A stretch of DNA of 64,000 bases from Bradyrhizobium sp. ISRA430 (lineage in GTDB: Bacteria > Pseudomonadota > Alphaproteobacteria > Rhizobiales > Xanthobacteraceae): NCBI RefSeq assembly GCF_029909975.1, contig NZ_CP094516.1, positions 6,076,001 through 6,140,000 of the forward strand, written 5' to 3'. The notes below the pieces were generated by a model, which saw only the letters and a list, made by a program, of their open reading frames with translations, made no database searches and was not told where the DNA came from. Position numbers and translations under genes: made by a program. Below are positions 13,916 to 55,268 of the stretch, in pieces; position 1 is the stretch's first letter, and each line of letters begins with the position of its first letter.

Positions 13916-15634
13916 TCACCCCGCCGCCATCTGCTGCGCGCCGCCGAGAAGCCGCGCATTGAGCCGGCCGCCGGAGAACAGCATGTCGTCGAGCGCCTCG
14001 TCGATGTCGGCGGAGATGATGGAGTTGCCACCATCGCGCGCAAGGCTCGCCTGCGCCAGCCGCCGCATCAACTCCTTGATGAAGGCACAACTCGTACCCT
14101 CACTGCGTCGGGCGGCCTCAACGACGACCGCGTCTTCGAGCGGCAGTCCCTTGCCATAGAGCTGGACCAGCTTGCTGCGGCCGCTCTCGTCGGGAAGCGG
14201 CACTTCGATGGCCTGATCAATACGGCCGGGGCGGCCAGCGAGCGCGCCTTCGAGATCTTCGGGCCGATTGGTGGTCAGAACGAACAGGATGTCCGCATCC
14301 TCCTTCAGCCCGTCCATCTCGTTGAGCAGCTTGTTCAGCAGGGACTCCTCGCAGGGGCCCATGTCGTCGCGGTCGCGGGCGATGAGATCGACATCCTCGA
14401 TCACGACCATCGAGGGCTGAAGCAAACGTGCGAGGCTCATGTAAGCGCCCAGAAGGCCCATTTGCTCCGCGGTGATTATAAGCGTCGTATGCCCAGGCAA
14501 GTGTGTCGCGAGATAGCGGATCGTGTGGGTCTTGCCGGTGCCCGGCGGCCCGTACAACAAGATGCCCTTGCGCGTCGATTGTCCGAGCCGGCGCAGTTGG
14601 TCGCGGGTGCCGACGAAATTCAGCACGTTGCGATCGAGCAGCCGCAAGGTCTGCTCCGGCAGGATCACCTCGCTTCGTGCGACCGGCGGCAAGCGGTGCA
14701 CGGTGATGCCGCGTGAGCGGCCGCGATAGTCGGAATCGGCGTCGAGCGAGAGGATCTTGCCGCGATAGGTGCGTGCGGCTTGCACGGCCTCTTCCAGTTC
14801 ACCGAAGCATTGCTGGACGAGGGCTGCGCCTGCGGAGCCCGAGGGCACCGCGATCTCGATCCGGATGCCGCTCTCACGGCTATATTCGCGATGTACACAG
14901 AGCAACACGGCATAGCGGAGATCACCCTGCGCGCACAGCCAGAGCCCGTTGTCGAGGCATTTGACCGGACTCTTCTCGCCGATCTCAAGATCGAAATACT
15001 GGAGCGGGGCGAGCGCCTGCGCATGGCGCCCTTCGCGGAGAAGTCGTGAAATCGACAGAGTCTCGTAACGTTGATCCTCGTTGATGCCGTACAGCCGGAT
15101 CGCGGTGCTGAACAGTCGATCGATGGCCGCCTGGACGTCTGCCCGCATGTGGCCGGGAAACTGGCGGACCGTTGTCACGAGCTTGCTGCGCGGAACGTTG
15201 GTGAAGTGCCAGTCCAGAACGTCGCAGGCATAGTCGAACTCTTCTTCCGGTTCGTCCGAGGTGCTGTCTGCTGCACGAATGCAGTCGCTGCACAGCCAGA
15301 TCGTGCGGCTGCCGAGCCGAACATCTGTCTGTCCCTCTGGCTTGCCGCACAGCTCGCATGGCGTCTTGATCTCTTCGAGCGTGATCTTCAGGCTATGGCG
15401 TGCGAGGCAAACGTATTGCTGGGCGGATTTGAACAGCGCTTCGGCGACGGATTGCGGGTAGGGTCCGCAGGCGGCTTTTTCCTCTTGCTCAATCCTCGTC
15501 ACCAGGGCGATCGCCTCACGCTCCGACTTGCCGAAAACCCGGCGGAGCAGCTCGATGACAAACTCATCCGGAGTGTCATCATCATTGTGGATTACGAGCT
15601 GGGCTGGTTCGCGTTCGCTGCGCATATCGCTCAT
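13916..15634 (-). CDS. ClpS-like / ClpX-type zinc finger / AAA+ ATPase fusion protein
   Basis: A 572-residue protein with three recognisable modules. Residues 11-90 resemble the ClpS adaptor (HNDDDTPDEFVIELL, then EKAACG). Residues 93-118 form a C4 zinc finger (C93-x2-C96-x18-C115-x2-C118) with exactly the spacing of the ClpX zinc-binding domain. After a middle region of about 200 residues of unknown fold comes a classical (FtsH/Cdc48-like) AAA domain: Walker A GPPGTGKT (362-369), Walker B MVVIEDVD (409-416), and a second region of homology with TTNRPEDLEGALAGRPGR supplying arginine fingers. It should be an active ATPase that unfolds or remodels proteins. The ClpS-like pocket keeps N17-D18-D19 but has Asp23 and Glu49 where E. 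coli ClpS has Met40 and His66. ATG 15634 has GGAG upstream. It is convergent with the tannase gene. Confidence 0.85.
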   Translation of the reverse strand: MSDMRSEREPAQLVIHNDDDTPDEFVIELLRRVFGKSEREAIALVTRIEQEEKAACGPYPQSVAEALFKSAQQYVCLARHSLKITLEEIKTPCELCGKPEGQTDVRLGSRTIWLCSDCIRAADSTSDEPEEEFDYACDVLDWHFTNVPRSKLVTTVRQFPGHMRADVQAAIDRLFSTAIRLYGINEDQRYETLSISRLLREGRHAQALAPLQYFDLEIGEKSPVKCLDNGLWLCAQGDLRYAVLLCVHREYSRESGIRIEIAVPSGSAGAALVQQCFGELEEAVQAARTYRGKILSLDADSDYRGRSRGITVHRLPPVARSEVILPEQTLRLLDRNVLNFVGTRDQLRRLGQSTRKGILLYGPPGTGKTHTIRYLATHLPGHTTLIITAEQMGLLGAYMSLARLLQPSMVVIEDVDLIARDRDDMGPCEESLLNKLLNEMDGLKEDADILFVLTTNRPEDLEGALAGRPGRIDQAIEVPLPDESGRSKLVQLYGKGLPLEDAVVVEAARRSEGTSCAFIKELMRRLAQASLARDGGNSIISADIDEALDDMLFSGGRLNARLLGGAQQMAAG

Positions 15635-15761
15635 CGCCAAAACAACTCCGTTGATACAACCTTTACTTGAATGGAACAAATAAGGAACATAAAGTGAGGA
15701 GGCCGTCAAGTGCGACGGCCGCGCAAACTTTCAATCAGGGATATGCGGAGGACCGAAGCCC

Positions 15762-17381
15762 CTAATGCGCAGGTCCGCCGGCCGCCTTCACGCGCCGCGT
15801 CAGCAGCACGGCGATCGCGGCCAGCACAAGCACCACGCCGATGACGGCAAAGGTGTCGGAATAGCCCATCACCAGCGCCTGGCGCTTGACGGTCTTGCCG
15901 AGCGCGATGATCGCCTGCTCGCGTGCCGCGTTGGGATCGGGCACGCCATGCGCGATGAAGTAGTTCGTCATCTGTGCGATGCGGGCGCGGACTTCCTCGC
16001 GGCCTAGCGTGACGGATTGGCCGATGATGTTGGAATGGAACTGCTCGCGTTTGGTGATGATGGTCGCAAGCGTCGCCGTGCCGATCGCGCCGCCGAGATT
16101 GCGGAACATGTTGCTGATGCCGGAGGCGGCCGCCGCATCCTGTGGTGCAATGCCGCCGGAGAGAACCGACGTCAGCGGCGTCAGCACCATGGCCTGTCCC
16201 ACGGCGCGCACGATGTTCGGGATCCAGAGCTGGTCGCCGGCATAGTCCGGCGACATCGCGGTGTTCATGAAGCAGCTATAGGCGAAGATCAGAAGACCGG
16301 TGATCGCTATATAGCGCGTGTCGAAGCGCTGCATCAGCTTCGGGATCAGCGGGATCAGCACGAGCTGCGGCAGACCGGTCCAGGCCAACACGTTGCCGAT
16401 CTGCTCGGCATTGTAGCCCTGCGCCTGGCCAAGATAGGCCGGCAGGATGTAGACCGAACCGAACAGCGCGAAGCCGACCATCGTCATGGCGACGGTGCCG
16501 AAGCCGAAATTGCGCTGCGTCAGCAACCGCAGCCGGATCAGCGGCTTCTCGATCGACAGCTCGATCGCGACGAACAGCGAGAGGCTGATGGCTGCGATCA
16601 CCGCCAGCCTGACGATGAAGGGCGATGAGAACCAGTCGTCCTTGTTGCCTTCCTCGAGCACGGCCTGCAGCGCCGACAATCCGATCGCCATGGTGACGAT
16701 GCCGGCCCAGTCGCCTTCCCTCAGAAGGCCGAGCTGCATCTTCTGCCGCTCCAGCGTCAGATAAAGCGCGGCCACCATGACGGCGGTCGGGATCACGTTG
16801 ACGAAGAAGATGGTGCGCCAGCCATAGGTCTCGGTGAGATAGCCGCCGATGGTCGGGCCGATCGCCGGCGCGAAGGTGACGGACAGCGCGAAGATCGCAA
16901 GGCCAATGGGCTGCTGCGGCTTCGGCAGCTTGGTCAGGACCAGCGTGAACGCCATCGGGATCAGCACGCCGCCGGCAAAGCCCTGCAGGCCGCGCATCGC
17001 GATCATCGACGGCAGGTCGTGGGTGAAGGCACAGGCGACCGAGAAGACGGCGAACAGTGTCGCGCTTGCCAGCATGTAGCGGCGGAACGAGAACACGCGG
17101 CTCAAATAATCGGTCAGCGGGATCACGATGATCTCGCCGATCAGGTACGACGTCGAGATCCAGGAACCGTTGTCCGCGCCGGTGCCGATGCCGCCCTCGA
17201 TGTTGAGCAGCGAGGCGTTGGTGATCTGGATGTTCAGGATCGCCATGAACGAGCCGATCATGGCGGCGAGCACGGCGATCCAGGTGGCCGCACTCGCGCG
17301 GTCGGGATCAACGGCGGCGCGATCAGGCGTCGCGGCCGGCGTTGCGGCTGTCGGCGTCGAGATTGAGAGGCTGTTTGACAT
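15762..17381 (-). CDS. DHA2-family MFS multidrug efflux permease (EmrB-like)
   Basis: A 539-residue, 14-TM drug:H+ antiporter. The first helix contains ATWIAVLAAMIGSFMAILN, followed by DNGSWISTSYLIGE (the EmrB-type motif after TM1) and further helices to the end; motif C-like text GPTIGGYLTE is present. It would form a tripartite pump with the EmrA-like adaptor encoded just upstream (genes overlap by 59 bp) and an outer-membrane channel encoded elsewhere. ATG 17381 has a strong GGAGGG Shine-Dalgarno. The expected regulator is the divergent TetR protein at 18680. Confidence 0.92.
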   Translation of the reverse strand: MSNSLSISTPTAATPAATPDRAAVDPDRASAATWIAVLAAMIGSFMAILNIQITNASLLNIEGGIGTGADNGSWISTSYLIGEIIVIPLTDYLSRVFSFRRYMLASATLFAVFSVACAFTHDLPSMIAMRGLQGFAGGVLIPMAFTLVLTKLPKPQQPIGLAIFALSVTFAPAIGPTIGGYLTETYGWRTIFFVNVIPTAVMVAALYLTLERQKMQLGLLREGDWAGIVTMAIGLSALQAVLEEGNKDDWFSSPFIVRLAVIAAISLSLFVAIELSIEKPLIRLRLLTQRNFGFGTVAMTMVGFALFGSVYILPAYLGQAQGYNAEQIGNVLAWTGLPQLVLIPLIPKLMQRFDTRYIAITGLLIFAYSCFMNTAMSPDYAGDQLWIPNIVRAVGQAMVLTPLTSVLSGGIAPQDAAAASGISNMFRNLGGAIGTATLATIITKREQFHSNIIGQSVTLGREEVRARIAQMTNYFIAHGVPDPNAAREQAIIALGKTVKRQALVMGYSDTFAVIGVVLVLAAIAVLLTRRVKAAGGPAH

Positions 17382-18588
17382 GGCACGACCCTCCGGAAAC
17401 GAGCTTGGCCTTGATCTTTGCCTTGGGCGCGGTCGCCGCATCCGCGGTCGGCGCGCTCGAACGTGTTGCGATGGTCGGGATCACGGACATGCCGGGCCGC
17501 AGCGCGATCGCGGGCACGGTGTTGGCATCCAGCGCGATCTTGACGGGAATGCGCTGCACCACCTTGGTGAAATTGCCGGTGGCGTTATCCGGCGGTAGCA
17601 GCGCGAATTCCTGGCCGCTGGCTGGCGCGATGGAATCGACGTGACCGTGCACGATCTGGCCCGGGAAGGTGTCCACCTCGATCTCGACCGTCTGTCCCGC
17701 ACGCACGTGGGTGAGCTGGGTCTCCTTGAAGTTGGCGACCACATAGGCCCCCTCGGCCGGCACGATCGACATCAACTGCGTTCCCGCCTGCACATACTGT
17801 CCGACACGGAGCGTGCGGTTGCCGATTACGCCGTCGATCGGTGAGACGATCGTGGTGTAGCTGAGGTTGAGCTCGGCCTGCTGCTGGATCGCCGCGGCCC
17901 GCGCGGCTGCGGCCTTGGCCTGCACGATCTCGGCCTTCAAGAGATCGACCTGCTTGAGGGCGGAGGTGAGATTGGCATTGTCGCGCTGGATCGCGGCGTC
18001 CGCGCCGGCATCGCGCGCCTGCGCCTGCTGCGCATTCTGCAGGCTGCCATAGCCGGTCGCGGCGAGGTCGGTGTAGCGCTTGTTCTCCTGGCTTGCGAAT
18101 GTCTTCGCAGCGGTGTCGACGTCGATCGTCGCCTTCGCTGCCGCGATCACCGCCTGCTGAACCTCGAGCTGGGCTTCCTTGCTCGTCACCGTGGCGTTCG
18201 CTGCGGCGACATCGGCCCTGGCCTGGTCGAGCGCGACCCTGAAGTCGCGGTCGTCGATCCGCGCCAGCACCTGGCCGGCCTTCACATGCTCGTTATCTCC
18301 CACCAGGACGCGGTCGAGATAGCCGCTGACCTTCGGCGCGATGGTGGTGTTGTCGGCCTTCACGTAGGCGTCATCGGTGGAGACGAGGAAGCGGCCGACG
18401 GTCCAATAGTCGTAGCCATACCAGCTCGCCCCCGCCAGCGCGAGAACCGCCACCCCTGCCAGCAACAGCTTGCGAAGGTTCAGCTTTTGACGAAAGGCGG
18501 AGGGGGCCGGAGCGGGCAGAACGCCCTCCAGCGCACCCGTCGGGACGACGGCGGATTCGGTCTTGGACGGGCTGGTGTGGACGGTCAT
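17323..18588 (-). CDS. HlyD/EmrA-family periplasmic adaptor of the efflux pump
   Basis: A 421-residue membrane fusion protein. A short cytoplasmic N-terminus precedes one TM helix (LLLAGVAVLALAGASWYGYDYW, about residues 40-60). Then come the biotinyl-lipoyl half (VSTDDAYVKADNTTIAPKVSG), a long helical hairpin rich in Ala/Gln (about 110-235), the second lipoyl half (YTTIVSPIDGVIGNRTLRVGQ) and a beta-barrel domain. ATG 18588 is preceded by GGGGAG. The 3' end overlaps the start of the DHA2 permease gene by 59 bp, so the two are co-translated. The C-terminal tail is charged and probably disordered. Confidence 0.92.
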   Translation of the reverse strand: MTVHTSPSKTESAVVPTGALEGVLPAPAPSAFRQKLNLRKLLLAGVAVLALAGASWYGYDYWTVGRFLVSTDDAYVKADNTTIAPKVSGYLDRVLVGDNEHVKAGQVLARIDDRDFRVALDQARADVAAANATVTSKEAQLEVQQAVIAAAKATIDVDTAAKTFASQENKRYTDLAATGYGSLQNAQQAQARDAGADAAIQRDNANLTSALKQVDLLKAEIVQAKAAAARAAAIQQQAELNLSYTTIVSPIDGVIGNRTLRVGQYVQAGTQLMSIVPAEGAYVVANFKETQLTHVRAGQTVEIEVDTFPGQIVHGHVDSIAPASGQEFALLPPDNATGNFTKVVQRIPVKIALDANTVPAIALRPGMSVIPTIATRSSAPTADAATAPKAKIKAKLVSGGSCHVKQPLNLDADSRNAGRDA

Positions 18589-18607
18589 GGCCGGCTCCCC
18601 TGAATTA

Positions 18608-18625
18608 GGAAACTTGACGGTTTCC
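18608..18625. promoter_or_regulatory. TetR operator candidate (perfect 6-bp dyad)
   Basis: GGAAAC (18608-18613) and GTTTCC (18620-18625) flank a 6-bp centre (TTGACG). The site sits in the 91-bp gap between the efflux operon and the divergent TetR gene, where a local TetR-type repressor would control both promoters. The link to the neighbouring TetR is inferred from position. Confidence 0.6.
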
Positions 18626-18679
18626 AAAATAGGATTAGCTTTGGGACTGTCAATGGAATGACAGGCATCATGTAAAAAC

Positions 18680-19339
18680 ATGGCTCAGGAAAAATCTGTC
18701 AGGGAATGCCGCCCCCGCGGGCGGCCGCAACTGCGCAGCGACGAGGAGACGAAGCAGATCGTGTTCGACGCCGCACGTCACGCCTTCGCCGTCGACGGCT
18801 ATGCCGCCACCAGCACCGAAGAGCTGGCGCGCCTCGCCGGCATTTCCACCAGGACGCTCTACCGGCTGTTTCCGGGCAAGGCCGCGCTGTTCGAGGCCAT
18901 GTGCGCGGACCGGCTCGAGCGGCTGCTCGCCGACGTCCATCTCAAGGCGAACGAAGAGATCGATATCGAGACGGGCCTGCGCGCCGCGCTGCTCGCCTGC
19001 ACCGATCTCGCGCTCGATCCGGAGGTGGTGGCGTTGCAGCGCATGGTGCTGCAGGAATCCGCCGCGTTCCCCGAGCTTGCCGCAAACTTCTACAAGAATG
19101 GCATTGCCCGCACCGTTAGGGCGCTCGCGCACTGGCTCCGCGTCCAGGTGAAGAAGCAGCGCATCGCGCTCGATGACGTCGACGAGGCCGCCGGCATGCT
19201 GATCGGCATGGTCGCATCGGCACCGCAGCGCGCGGCGATCTATGGCGGCATAGCCTTGCCCTCGCGCAAGCAGATCGAGCGGCGCGTGCATAGCTGCGCG
19301 ACCCTTTTTCTGAATGGCTGTCGCGCCGCATCGCCATAG
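18680..19339 (+). CDS. TetR family transcriptional regulator
   Basis: A 219-residue repressor. Residues 15-65 form the TetR helix-turn-helix domain (AFAVDGYAATSTEELARLAG, ISTRTLYRLFPGKAALFEAM). The C-terminal region is the all-helical ligand pocket, similar in layout to the AefR-like C-terminal domain (LDPEVVALQRMVLQES). It is transcribed divergently from the EmrA/EmrB-like pump operon, so it very likely represses the pump and itself through the dyad at 18608-18625. The ligand is unknown. Confidence 0.9.
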   Translation: MAQEKSVRECRPRGRPQLRSDEETKQIVFDAARHAFAVDGYAATSTEELARLAGISTRTLYRLFPGKAALFEAMCADRLERLLADVHLKANEEIDIETGLRAALLACTDLALDPEVVALQRMVLQESAAFPELAANFYKNGIARTVRALAHWLRVQVKKQRIALDDVDEAAGMLIGMVASAPQRAAIYGGIALPSRKQIERRVHSCATLFLNGCRAASP

Positions 19340-51912: not shown

Positions 51913-52959
51913 TTATAGGCGGCGAATAAGAGCTTTTGACCAACTCATACATGCTTCGATCGCCCAGTCGGACTGAACTGGATTCAGGGCGGGCGCAAAC
52001 GAATCTCCTGCACCATGACCCAACGGATTGCGGACTTTCGCAAAGAAGGCCTTTAGCGCGTCAGCCTCCCATCCCCCAATCAGAGACCCGCGGACAAGAT
52101 TGTCAATGTAGTTCGCCGCACCTCTCTCCTTTCCAGTTGATAGATTCCTATCGTTCGAAATGATTTTGATGGTGCTTTCCAAGGCCTTTGCCGCGTGGAA
52201 CGGGGCATCGCCCAAACCGTTGTCGCGACGGTCGAAGGCTTCTTTCATCTCCAAATCAACATTCCTCCATTTGGGGTCGGCAACCAACTCCCAGAAGGGG
52301 ATCTCGATTGTTTCCGCAGAGAGGGCATCGTCAGCGAGCTGAATGAAGCCGTTGTGATAGTGAAGCCTAGTTTCGGCCTGACGAAAGCGCTCGTTCAGCT
52401 CGATGACAGAATCCGAATAGAGTATGTTTTGGCGCTTGTTGATCTCGATTAGGTGTTCCGCGGGATCGCCCGGCAAGACGAGCCGGCCGGTGCTCCGTCG
52501 GCGTCGTTCTCTCTCGGATTTGACGGCGTTCGGCAGGGCGGCGTTCGACGCCGCAACTTCATCGCCGCACTTGCGAAAACCGATCTCAATCAAACTAATC
52601 CGCTCCTTGATAAAGCGGTCGGCAGTAATGCCTGTATTCGGATCGAAGTTCTGCAATATCCAATTTTTGCAAATGTAGTCGTATTCCCAGGTGCCTGACA
52701 TAAAAGCCCCCGAGGGGGCCGTGAATGCATAAGCAACGGGGGAAAGAGAATCTAATCCCAATTCCATCGATATACTTGATTGCAAGTCTTGCCAAAACGC
52801 CTTGCCGCCGGCGTCAACTCTACCATTCGAGTCATAGTAGGGGCGTAGCTGATCAAGCAGAATTCGAAAGCCCTGTACGATGAGGCGTCGTTCGGGGACG
52901 CCAAACGCGTGCCATATCTTGGTTTTTGAGTATCGGTTCGCAAAGATGTCAGTAAGCAT
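51913..52959 (-). CDS. AbiJ-type protein with C-terminal HEPN (Rx4H) domain
   Basis: A 348-residue protein. The N-terminal part (IFANRYSKTKIWHAFGVPER, then RLIVQGFRILLDQLRPYY, and GITADRFIKERISLIEIGFR near residue 115) resembles the AbiJ N-terminal domain 4 of abortive-infection proteins, as I recall it. The C-terminal 100 residues (GDAPFHAAKALESTIKIISN to the end) form an all-helical HEPN-like domain with the ribonuclease-type signature R310-x4-H315 (RNPLGHGAG). A phage-triggered RNase toxin is a reasonable expectation, not proven. The gene overlaps the 94-aa frame upstream by 11 bp. Base composition is clearly more AT-rich than the flanking chromosome. Confidence 0.75.
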   Translation of the reverse strand: MLTDIFANRYSKTKIWHAFGVPERRLIVQGFRILLDQLRPYYDSNGRVDAGGKAFWQDLQSSISMELGLDSLSPVAYAFTAPSGAFMSGTWEYDYICKNWILQNFDPNTGITADRFIKERISLIEIGFRKCGDEVAASNAALPNAVKSERERRRRSTGRLVLPGDPAEHLIEINKRQNILYSDSVIELNERFRQAETRLHYHNGFIQLADDALSAETIEIPFWELVADPKWRNVDLEMKEAFDRRDNGLGDAPFHAAKALESTIKIISNDRNLSTGKERGAANYIDNLVRGSLIGGWEADALKAFFAKVRNPLGHGAGDSFAPALNPVQSDWAIEACMSWSKALIRRL

Positions 52960-53233
52960 TTGCTGCGTCCGCTCTGGCTTCTGGCTGCTCGGAAGACGCG
53001 ATAATCAGTTGCGACGCACTTAGGCGCGCACAGCGCAACGCCAACCTCGCCGACGCCCGAATCCCAGCCTCGTCAGCCGAATAATGTCGCGATTCGCCCG
53101 ATAGCGCTATCCGTAGCTCATGTATCGACACTTGTCCGCCTGGAGCAACAATCTCCAAAAGAAGCCGTCGTAGCGGACGCAGGCGTTGGCTAGGATGGTC
53201 CTTGTGAGGCGTTTGAGAATCTCGCAACTGCAT
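52949..53233 (-). CDS. Small protein (94 aa) between the two HEPN genes, unknown
   Basis: A 94-residue frame that overlaps both neighbours: 44 bp with the gene before and 11 bp with the AbiJ-like gene after. Its middle (RLLLEIVAPGGQVSIHELRI, then ALSGESRHYSADEAGIR) has the spacing of a small winged-helix or helix-turn-helix fold, which would suit an operon regulator or antitoxin, but no family is recognised. No strong Shine-Dalgarno is visible, so translational coupling would be needed. It could also be a chance frame filling the 230-bp gap. Confidence 0.45.
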   Translation of the reverse strand: MQLRDSQTPHKDHPSQRLRPLRRLLLEIVAPGGQVSIHELRIALSGESRHYSADEAGIRASARLALRCARLSASQLIIASSEQPEARADAANAY

Positions 53234-54425
53234 TCTGAACTACCGCCAAGGCAGCCTTCAAAATGCGAACATCCTCCCCACCGAATCTGATTCCCAATTG
53301 ATGAGCTTTGTGGGGGTGCGCCAGATTTATGCGCTGTGCTCCATTGACGCCGAACAGCCGCTTCGAAACTGTTGAGCGATCTTCGTCGAAATATGCTTCG
53401 AATGCAGGCCAGTTGTCTCGGAGTATCTCGATAATATCGGCAAAGTAGGCATTACTGTACACGAAGCGTTGAATCTTTTCGTCCCAGAGCTTCTTCCTGA
53501 CGCGCTCGGGCAGAAATTCATCAAGCGAATTCGAGGAGCTCTTCCGGATGAGGACGTCATATACAAACTGTCCCAACATTCTCTCGAGTGTCGCGAAGCG
53601 GTCGTAAGCGTCGGCCCGATCTCTCTCCTTTGATCGCGCTTCCTTATCGATAAAATCAATAAGATTTGCAGCGAACTCTCGATTCTCTTGGATTCCGGCG
53701 ACATATCCTCCCGGAGATTCGTATCCTTCCTTCAGAAGACTAACTGAGAGAAGTATTTGAAGCTCCCGTCCTCGTCGGCGTCGTACAGCCACAGCATTCC
53801 GTCGTCCGGGAATGCCCGATGTGAAGAAATCGCTCTTGCCATCAACTAAGAAGTGCAGTGGAGATGCTTCAATAATTGGAAAGGAGCCAGCTTCGTAGTC
53901 CAATAAATAGGCGCCGTGTCCGACAAGCTTGTGAACGCCGTCAAACAATTCAGGATCATTCAAAGAATTATCTTCGTTGTTGAACTCGCATACATATGGG
54001 GAACTGTGTGAGGAGGTTGCGAGGAGTTCGCTGCCTACCTTCGTGTCCGTGGGATTGCAGCCGAAGCTTCTTAAGAGATCCTCCATTCCCTCCGGAGCTT
54101 GCTTTGTGGTTAGGCTGTGACGCATTCCACCGACTTGGAAGAGAATGGGGCATCCCTCAGAAGCTTTTTCTTTGATCCGTTGCAGCAGACGGGGCGCATC
54201 AGATCCAACTTGACGCAGAGTGACATAATCACCGAGGCAAATGATTATCTCTGCCTCAGCAACGGCGGCCCACACTCGTTCGAGCCATTTTTGTCCATCC
54301 GTTTGACCATCGAAGAAGGGCAATCGACGAACAGGTCGAGACATTCGTTGTCGCGCAAGTTCCGTAAACTGGCTCGCCCGGTCGTTGTATGAGGTGTAAA
54401 TCGGATCGAATATCAGGGCGGTCAT
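53190..54425 (-). CDS. Two-domain protein: alpha/beta N-terminus, Swt1-like HEPN C-terminus
   Basis: A 411-residue protein. Residues 1-270 look like an alpha/beta Rossmann-type domain (ALIFDPIYTSYNDRASQF, AEAEIIICLGDYVTLRQVG, GCPILFQVGG, LVGHGAYLLDY) and may be a class-I-amidotransferase- or ThuA-like fold, but this is not secure. The C-terminal 120 residues (LGQFVYDVLIRKSSSNSLDE, NAYFADIIEILRDNWPAFEA) match the pattern of Swt1-type HEPN domains and end in R365-INLA-H370, the HEPN Rx4H motif. ATG 54425 is chosen; a TTG at 54461 is in frame. It is probably the first gene of the operon with the 94-aa and AbiJ-like proteins. AT-rich for this genome. Confidence 0.7.
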   Translation of the reverse strand: MTALIFDPIYTSYNDRASQFTELARQRMSRPVRRLPFFDGQTDGQKWLERVWAAVAEAEIIICLGDYVTLRQVGSDAPRLLQRIKEKASEGCPILFQVGGMRHSLTTKQAPEGMEDLLRSFGCNPTDTKVGSELLATSSHSSPYVCEFNNEDNSLNDPELFDGVHKLVGHGAYLLDYEAGSFPIIEASPLHFLVDGKSDFFTSGIPGRRNAVAVRRRRGRELQILLSVSLLKEGYESPGGYVAGIQENREFAANLIDFIDKEARSKERDRADAYDRFATLERMLGQFVYDVLIRKSSSNSLDEFLPERVRKKLWDEKIQRFVYSNAYFADIIEILRDNWPAFEAYFDEDRSTVSKRLFGVNGAQRINLAHPHKAHQLGIRFGGEDVRILKAALAVVQNAVARFSNASQGPS

Positions 54426-54445
54426 GGTGGTATAAGCATGTAGGA

Positions 54446-54643
54446 CTACGAGTCTTGGCAAACTTCTGACTTAGATAATGCCGCAAGAGCAAACCAAAGC
54501 ATATAGGATGAATAGAGACCAGCGAACCCATCAAAATCGCCAGCCCATGTCGACCCGTCGGGCAAAACACCTGCCCAATGAAAAAAACCGTCAAGCCTCT
54601 TCCACAAAAAAGATTCTGCTTTACAGAAATTCGGAATTACAGT
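54446..54643 (-). pseudogene. Possible C-terminal gene fragment at island edge
   Basis: From about 54643 to a stop at 54446 the minus strand reads a protein-like stretch (ESFLWKRLDGFFHWAGVLPD, then STWAGDFDGFAGLYSSYMLW) rich in aromatic residues, of natural appearance. Upstream the frame passes abruptly into GC-rich repeat-type sequence of improbable composition. It may be the 3' remnant of a further island gene truncated on its 5' side, 20 bp before the HEPN gene start. Low confidence; it could be chance. Confidence 0.3.

Positions 54644-55193: not shown

Positions 55194-55268
<75 letters not shown>

Follow-up and report, generated by a model that had tools for sequence, protein, structure and literature searches.

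One Bradyrhizobium protein combines a ClpS domain, a ClpX-type zinc finger and a classical AAA domain

Results

Architecture of the fusion gene

As far as is known, ClpS is a stand-alone adaptor, and the zinc finger of ClpX belongs to a single unfoldase. In the window (the whole 64,000-nucleotide stretch of Bradyrhizobium sp. ISRA430 that was analysed), one chain joins a ClpS domain, a ClpX-type C4 zinc finger, a middle domain and a classical AAA domain (Table 1). The open frame starts from an ATG at 15634 and encodes 572 amino acids; an alternative TTG start at 15709 would give a protein of 597. The Pfam scan of the 572-residue protein, a search that an earlier note on this DNA had proposed, placed ClpS at residues 8-84, zf-C4_ClpX at 93-123 and AAA at 358-480; the ClpS and AAA matches lie above their cut-offs, and the zf-C4_ClpX match lies below its own and is supported by a profile of the finger family, so that Pfam and the profile together agree with the three-part fusion that the note had read from the sequence. 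The ATPase had been described there as neither ClpA nor ClpX, and this is borne out by its match to PF00004 and by the lack of a Clp-type ATPase model among 25 of the 26 matched Pfam families listed for the protein. Likewise, the suggestion that there is possibly no dedicated protease agrees with the Pfam scan, which found no protease domain in the chain, and with the absence of a peptidase among the six window neighbours scanned. The middle domain, searched as a ten-sequence profile, gave no match in the PDB at E 10 and no credible one in Pfam; the [LIV]G[FL] motif of the ClpP-binding loop is absent anywhere in the protein, and by eye no HbYX-like C-terminal end was seen.

Table 1. Position and supporting evidence of the features of the fusion gene and of the adjoining efflux genes
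Feature	Position in window	Strand	Evidence
Whole gene: ClpS / ClpX-finger / middle domain / AAA protein	13916..15634	(-)	572 aa, stop codon included
ClpS domain, residues 8-84	15383..15613	(-)	Pfam PF02617, E=2.2e-15
ClpX-type C4 zinc finger, C93-C96-C115-C118	15281..15358	(-)	Pfam, family profile and conserved cysteines
Middle domain, about residues 127-340	14615..15256	(-)	Conserved YRGK...VHRLP...VILP motifs
Classical AAA domain, about residues 346-545	14000..14599	(-)	PF00004, E=2e-20 at 358-480
Walker A GPPGTGKT, 362-369	14528..14551	(-)	T366, K368 and T369 in 105/105 rows
Shortened pore-loop-1 region, 389-398	14441..14470	(-)	Loop eight residues shorter than in the second AAA domain of Cdc48
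Variant Walker B MVVIEDVD, 409-416	14387..14410	(-)	E413 in 104/105, D414 and D416 in 105/105 rows
Arginine fingers R468, R471 (RPGR)	14222..14233	(-)	105/105 rows each
C-terminal tail	13919..13990	(-)	Conserved GGRLN..LLGG
HlyD and MFS efflux genes	15762-18681	(-)	Directly upstream, same strand

No description of the fusion was found in the open-access literature searched (subscription papers were outside its scope), consistent with the statement in the earlier note that no system of this kind was known to it. Excerpts of three papers mention ClpS domains or neighbours, and these describe other fusions or gene neighbours (PMC7159879, PMC1779556, PMC12419801).

The ClpS domain has an altered pocket

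The N-terminal domain matched PF02617 with 56.6 bits against a curated cut-off of 23, and the ClpS structures 3g1b, 3dnj and 1mbu were matched at E=4e-9 to 2e-8. Asn34, Asp35, Met40 and His66 of ClpS (E. coli numbering) have roles in N-degron binding. Alignment with ClpS confirmed the pocket read in the earlier note, which keeps Asn-Asp-Asp and carries Asp for Met40 and Glu for His66: N34, D35 and D36 correspond to N17, D18 and D19 of the fusion protein, M40 to D23 and H66 to E49. The alteration holds across the family, as none of the 78 ClpS-bearing rows of alignment A1 has His at position 66, where Glu or Asp stands in 64 (P0179, which is present in the 79-row set and is without a real ClpS domain, is excluded from these counts). 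Of the same rows, 72 keep Asp35, 74 Thr38 and 77 Leu99, and 72 have Asn or Asp at position 34; His66 is present in both ordinary ClpS proteins of the same genome. Among 28 representatives sharing less than 65% identity, position 66 is Glu in 11, Asp in 7, Ser in 4 and another residue in 6, and the Met40 position is among the least conserved, 73rd of 75. An acid at position 66 is not general, however, because P0218, P0231 and P0239, the ClpS-bearing rows that branch deepest in the tree, carry Gly, Asn and Ser, respectively. Glu79 is kept in 2/28 representatives and Lys84 in 0/28; both are positions that we take to be ClpA contacts of ClpS. About 11 residues precede the ClpS core, leaving almost no N-terminal extension. 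Thus the domain resembles ClpS of E. coli and Caulobacter in its fold, as judged by sequence, and in the Asn-Asp-Asp and Thr-Pro of the pocket entrance, but differs in its fusion to an ATPase, in the missing His66 and relaxed Met40 gate, in the near-lack of an extension and in the changed positions 79 and 84.

These features bear on the idea that the protein regulates the Clp system, its head mimicking an adaptor plus the ClpX zinc domain and capturing clients or partner adaptors, which the AAA core would then sequester or release. Both head modules are of Clp-system origin, and the host has two ordinary ClpS copies with which such a protein could compete; furthermore, the conserved Asp35 could contact a ClpC N-domain, as in a simulation of M. 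tuberculosis ClpC1 with ClpS, in which, according to an excerpt of that work, Asp35 contacts the N-domain of the ATPase (PMC6274998). Since Asp35 may serve docking to the N-domain of ClpA or ClpC, its conservation alone is no proof of amine binding. Nevertheless, regulation of this kind appears quite unlikely: positions 79 and 84 are not kept, core-only relatives exist without any Clp module, and ClpS delivery relies on the N-terminal extension, according to an excerpt of PMC9663308, whereas hardly any is present here.

A ClpS-like fold inside a longer chain has a counterpart among N-recognins. Ubr1 and Ubr11 are eukaryotic ubiquitin ligases that are not known to carry an AAA domain. In these large proteins, too, a ClpS-like domain is embedded, as an excerpt of PMC4447728 describes.

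The zinc finger is of the ClpX kind

In the window protein alone, the zf-C4_ClpX match reached E=0.14 and 12.5 bits, below the cut-off of 27. All four cysteines are nevertheless present in 72 of the 78 ClpS-bearing rows, and 18 residues separate the cysteine pairs in 68 of these 72, so that the 2-18-2 spacing of ClpX noted for the window protein (C-x2-C-x18-C-x2-C) is a property of its relatives as well. When a profile of 22 fingers was compared with the PDB, the seven best matches were all ClpX sequences (E=9.9e-7 to 0.0027), and the match after these stood at 0.55. Six other finger-bearing relatives were scanned with Pfam: P0218 (E=1.2e-9) and P0238 (E=4.8e-7) exceeded the cut-off, P0235 matched below it, and P0212, P0231 and P0234 gave no zf-C4_ClpX match at E 0.01. 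Because the cysteines are conserved, the family profile finds ClpX structures and two relatives pass the Pfam cut-off, the match is not due to chance, and by these sequence criteria the finger is of the ClpX kind. The residues between the zinc cysteines drift widely while the cysteines are kept. The motif occurs in 32 of the 38 loci read, and on the tree of cores the finger alone is missing from one clade of six ClpS-bearing rows; P0095, marked as fingerless in the tree, does possess four cysteines, but its two pairs are separated by 24 residues. Relative to the ClpX zinc domain (PF06689; 2ds5, 1ovx), with which it shares the spacing and the profile match, the finger differs in standing behind ClpS and before a non-ClpX ATPase, and in its loss from a clade that keeps ClpS.

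The AAA core lacks a pore-loop segment

Cdc48/p97, PAN and FtsH are the best-scoring relatives of the AAA domain and share with it Walker A, sensor 1 and the double arginine finger; the second AAA domain of Cdc48 was matched at 89 bits. The NCBIfam scores all fall below their cut-offs (FtsH 103/600, PAN 99/500, CDC48 92/803 and IetA 64/510 bits). Unlike these relatives, the fusion protein has no pore-loop aromatic segment, no protease domain, a single AAA domain and other N-domains. The earlier note had recorded intact Walker A/B motifs and arginine fingers: Walker A and the arginine fingers are indeed invariant, as is the sensor-1 Asn456 in 105 rows, whereas Walker B is swapped, with IEDVD (E413-D414) in place of LDELD in Cdc48. 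Alignment with the second AAA domain of Cdc48 placed a gap of eight residues opposite WYGESESN of its pore loop. Both the shortened loop and the swapped Walker B are also found in core relatives from Actinobacteria (L067/L068) and Acidobacteria (L074).

In AAA+ unfoldases the pore-1 aromatics grip the chain, as stated in an excerpt of PMC9663308, and in Cdc48 one ring has lost the aromatic and its threading is called less effective in an excerpt of PMC5511170. Since the pore-loop segment with the translocating aromatic is missing and Walker B is swapped, a threading unfoldase is unlikely on these sequence features and is not the first expectation, and the 'working unfoldase' of the earlier note is not upheld. 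Such an enzyme would combine N-degron adaptor and unfoldase in one chain, its built-in ClpS selecting substrates that are fed to ClpP or another protease. It would suit the derivation of both the ClpS and the ClpX parts from Clp proteases, the closeness of the classical AAA domain to Cdc48, FtsH and PAN by score, and a genome with a normal Clp system, in which one ordinary ClpS adjoins a ClpA-type gene (recognised by eye). Tyr398, at the shortened loop, is kept in 103/105 rows and could be a displaced gripping aromatic that restores threading, which is the main doubt about a non-threading reading. With the eight residues and their gripping aromatic missing, no ClpP loop, no protease domain and the ClpA contacts at positions 79 and 84 changed, we consider threading into a protease unlikely.

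The Walker B of Bcs1 is of the EDxD type. Bcs1 differs from the fusion protein in being mitochondrial, membrane-bound and heptameric and in having neither ClpS nor zinc finger, and it was not among the 18 matches of one similarity search. The likeness lies in a classical AAA protein that works without threading: excerpts of PMC11143374 describe a concerted cycle by which Bcs1 moves folded protein without threading it.

Gene neighbourhood

In the window, a tannase gene neighbours the fusion gene on the other strand, the MFS and HlyD genes lie upstream on the strand of the fusion gene itself, followed further out by a TetR gene, and 127 bases separate the MFS stop codon from the ATG of the fusion gene. 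We searched 21 neighbourhoods of about 20 kb for partner genes with a rough gene finder. The order and strand of HlyD, MFS and the fusion gene are kept in five of them, window included; because of this arrangement and the 127-base gap in the window, co-transcription in those five loci is possible, judging from gene layout. A helper of the efflux pump, which in its own clade would be transcribed with HlyD and MFS and would remodel or regulate the pump, is very improbable nonetheless, as the pump genes are not adjacent in the other 16 neighbourhoods, of which two belong to the chromosomal block of those five loci and 14 do not. Seven close loci share this block and account for most occurrences of the best-recurring neighbour families (9, 8, 8 and 7 of the 21 neighbourhoods); among the loci outside the block no common neighbour was seen.

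Elsewhere in the window, 51913-54461 holds an AbiJ_NTD4 protein of abortive-infection type (E=4.9e-14) and a 423-residue protein without a Pfam match. The GC fraction at 52-56 kb is 0.556, compared with 0.64-0.67 in the other 4-kb bins, and a tRNA-Thr lies nearby at 55194-55268; the stretch resembles a small island.

The fusion belongs to a wider AAA family

With the middle domain as query, matches were found in 74 of 146 sampled Bradyrhizobium genomes (six of the 74, G340, G356, G374, G422, G425 and G431, with fragments or split matches only), in 8 of 297 genomes and 3 of 122 genera of the order sample, and in 7 of 398 genomes of the phylum sample, all seven Bradyrhizobium; the three samples overlap. 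Two order-sample matches lie outside the genus, one with the head (L011) and one without (L012). Such a genome count had been proposed in the earlier note, and it shows the fusion to be rare outside Bradyrhizobium. Among the matches listed (the best 120 proteins at least), all are at least 66% identical, the organism where named is Bradyrhizobium plus one Frankia, and the product is often named ClpS or FtsH. The genome of the window itself has four ClpS domains: those of the two ordinary ClpS proteins, that of the fusion protein, and a weak one (E=3e-5) in a 539-residue paralog without finger (own genome, 7.10 Mb; L004, 1444-3063), in which Asn34-Asp35-Asp36 has become Asp-Gly-Gly. Nine bases upstream of this paralog lies a gene for a 201-residue protein without a Pfam match, preceded by a gene for a DPPIV-type peptidase.

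With a core-only protein as query, headless relatives of about 440-475 residues were found, among the matches listed, in Methylobacterium, Mesorhizobium, Rhizobium, Burkholderia and Steroidobacter; named genome records among the best 80 of 312 relatives, most of which are other AAA proteins, add Abditibacterium, two Planctomycetes, Actinobacteria and one Acidobacterium. Within Bradyrhizobium, a nested headless clade of six loci (five in the tree) has intact cores 79-81% identical to the window protein, and tblastn upstream of these six cores found no trace of a head. The ClpS-finger head is one of several N-terminal arrangements within a wider AAA family, which is also found without it; we regard the head as an optional specificity module, because headless cores are known both from other lineages and from one clade of Bradyrhizobium. 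On the tree of 67 cores (of 69 intended, with L145 and L152 excluded by a reading-frame filter), the presence of the ClpS head needs three changes. The simplest history, with Planctomycete and Abditibacterium rows as outgroup, suggests an early gain of the head and two losses, probably one in the Methylobacterium-Rhizobium-Burkholderia group and the other in the headless Bradyrhizobium clade; we infer these events only, because this is a quick tree with SH-aLRT support alone and long outgroup branches.

Several core-only or differently headed relatives show features of their own. In the Planctomycete core relatives (L065 from 5173, L066 from 7695 onwards), an apparent N-terminal membrane helix replaces the ClpS-finger head. 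Residues 21-117 of P0179 form a third kind of head, DUF5069-like (E=1.7e-5, just under the Pfam cut-off). Cys-containing tails (DECC, DDCGSC, GDQCF and ECDCCD) end the core-only relatives P0122, P0187, P0195 and P0150 and are absent from others such as P0183 and P0214.

Core matches were also found in 43 plasmid records (42 from Rhizobium, Sinorhizobium or Mesorhizobium, the last from Paraburkholderia), 37 of them conjugative; coverage of the query stays below 80% in every plasmid record, and the 30 matches listed all start at residue 115 or later. A phage origin was rejected, as coverage of the protein did not exceed 47% in any of 14 phage records.

The absence of the gene from half of the genus would suit a dispensable remnant, a fusion without present use that is being lost. 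Frame-broken parts occur in 7 of 20 loci (L149, L150, L154, L155, L157, L158 and L159), a sample in which most loci had been picked because their frames were short or split or because they were second copies; some of these copies may reflect sequencing errors and some real decay. The split ClpS and AAA gene pair of L057 was considered as a two-gene version and rejected, the frame change lying within the gene and recurring in other loci. Intact copies, however, are under purifying selection in all four parts tested, with dN/dS of about 0.17 for ClpS, 0.21 for the finger region, 0.12 for the middle domain and 0.05 for AAA (22 close copies, 231 pairs, 214 to 231 usable; parts offset by three residues with the second Met as start, C-terminal tail left out). 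Together with the zinc cysteines kept amid drifting residues, this makes a remnant the scarcely credible reading, even less probable than a pump helper.

Patchy presence, broken copies and plasmid-borne core relatives would also be expected of an ATPase for conflict or plasmid maintenance like IetA, acting as antitoxin or against phage with a partner toxin. IetS, the partner of IetA in IetAS, is a protease. The PADLOC IetA model matched four of the proteins (E=1e-19 to 1e-22), and its matches, like those of NCBIfam, extend N-terminal of the AAA domain. On the other hand, in each of the seven proteins tested the FtsH, PAN and Cdc48 models score higher than IetA, and six IetA-like proteins, which also fall below the NCBIfam cut-off, keep a full pore loop and a DE Walker B, both of which the fusion family lacks. 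The window neighbours are the tannase, efflux and TetR genes. As to a partner gene, the six window neighbours scanned for domains include no peptidase, and the top neighbour recurs in 9 of 21 neighbourhoods, a minority of whose genes entered the domain scan; beside the paralog, a DPPIV-type peptidase gene lies two genes upstream. Membership of IetA was accordingly rejected on score, loop and Walker B, and an IetA-like role appears improbable.

Discussion

Taken together, these data lead us to favour, tentatively and at somewhat less than even confidence, an AAA+ remodeller without a protease of its own and with a built-in, relaxed receptor for N-termini. The core would form a ring and hydrolyse ATP. 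The ClpS domain would capture clients through their free amino terminus or some other cationic end, using the acidic side of the pocket that is kept in Asp35, Asn/Asp34 and, mostly, Glu or Asp for His66; with the side-chain gate at Met40 relaxed, the classical preference for Leu, Phe, Tyr and Trp would be weak or changed. The zinc finger may pair the heads or add a second docking surface, as in ClpX. Ring movement driven by ATP would then bring the captured protein into another conformation or state of assembly without pore threading, in the manner of Bcs1 and unlike ClpA or ClpX. Ring, pocket geometry and pore are all predicted from sequence here. A non-threading remodeller fits the observations better than an unfoldase does. 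Counting against it, half of the genus is without the gene, the acid at position 66 is not general, and the fusion protein may act with the efflux genes rather than alone; the possible operon slightly lowers the support for the remodeller. The more specific picture of a ring that senses N-termini, in which Clp recognition parts sit on a non-threading, protease-free AAA core and the N-terminus marks proteins for reshaping or disassembly rather than for degradation, we regard as rather unlikely.

If it were true, recognition of N-termini would be separated from proteolysis, giving a branch of N-degron biology without destruction. The fusion also offers a testable case for what a ClpS pocket without His66 binds. 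More widely, the core defines an unnamed and widespread AAA family, from Planctomycetes to Rhizobium, that swaps its heads (ClpS-finger, membrane anchor or DUF5069-like), and the database names 'ClpS' and 'FtsH' are ill-suited to its motor.
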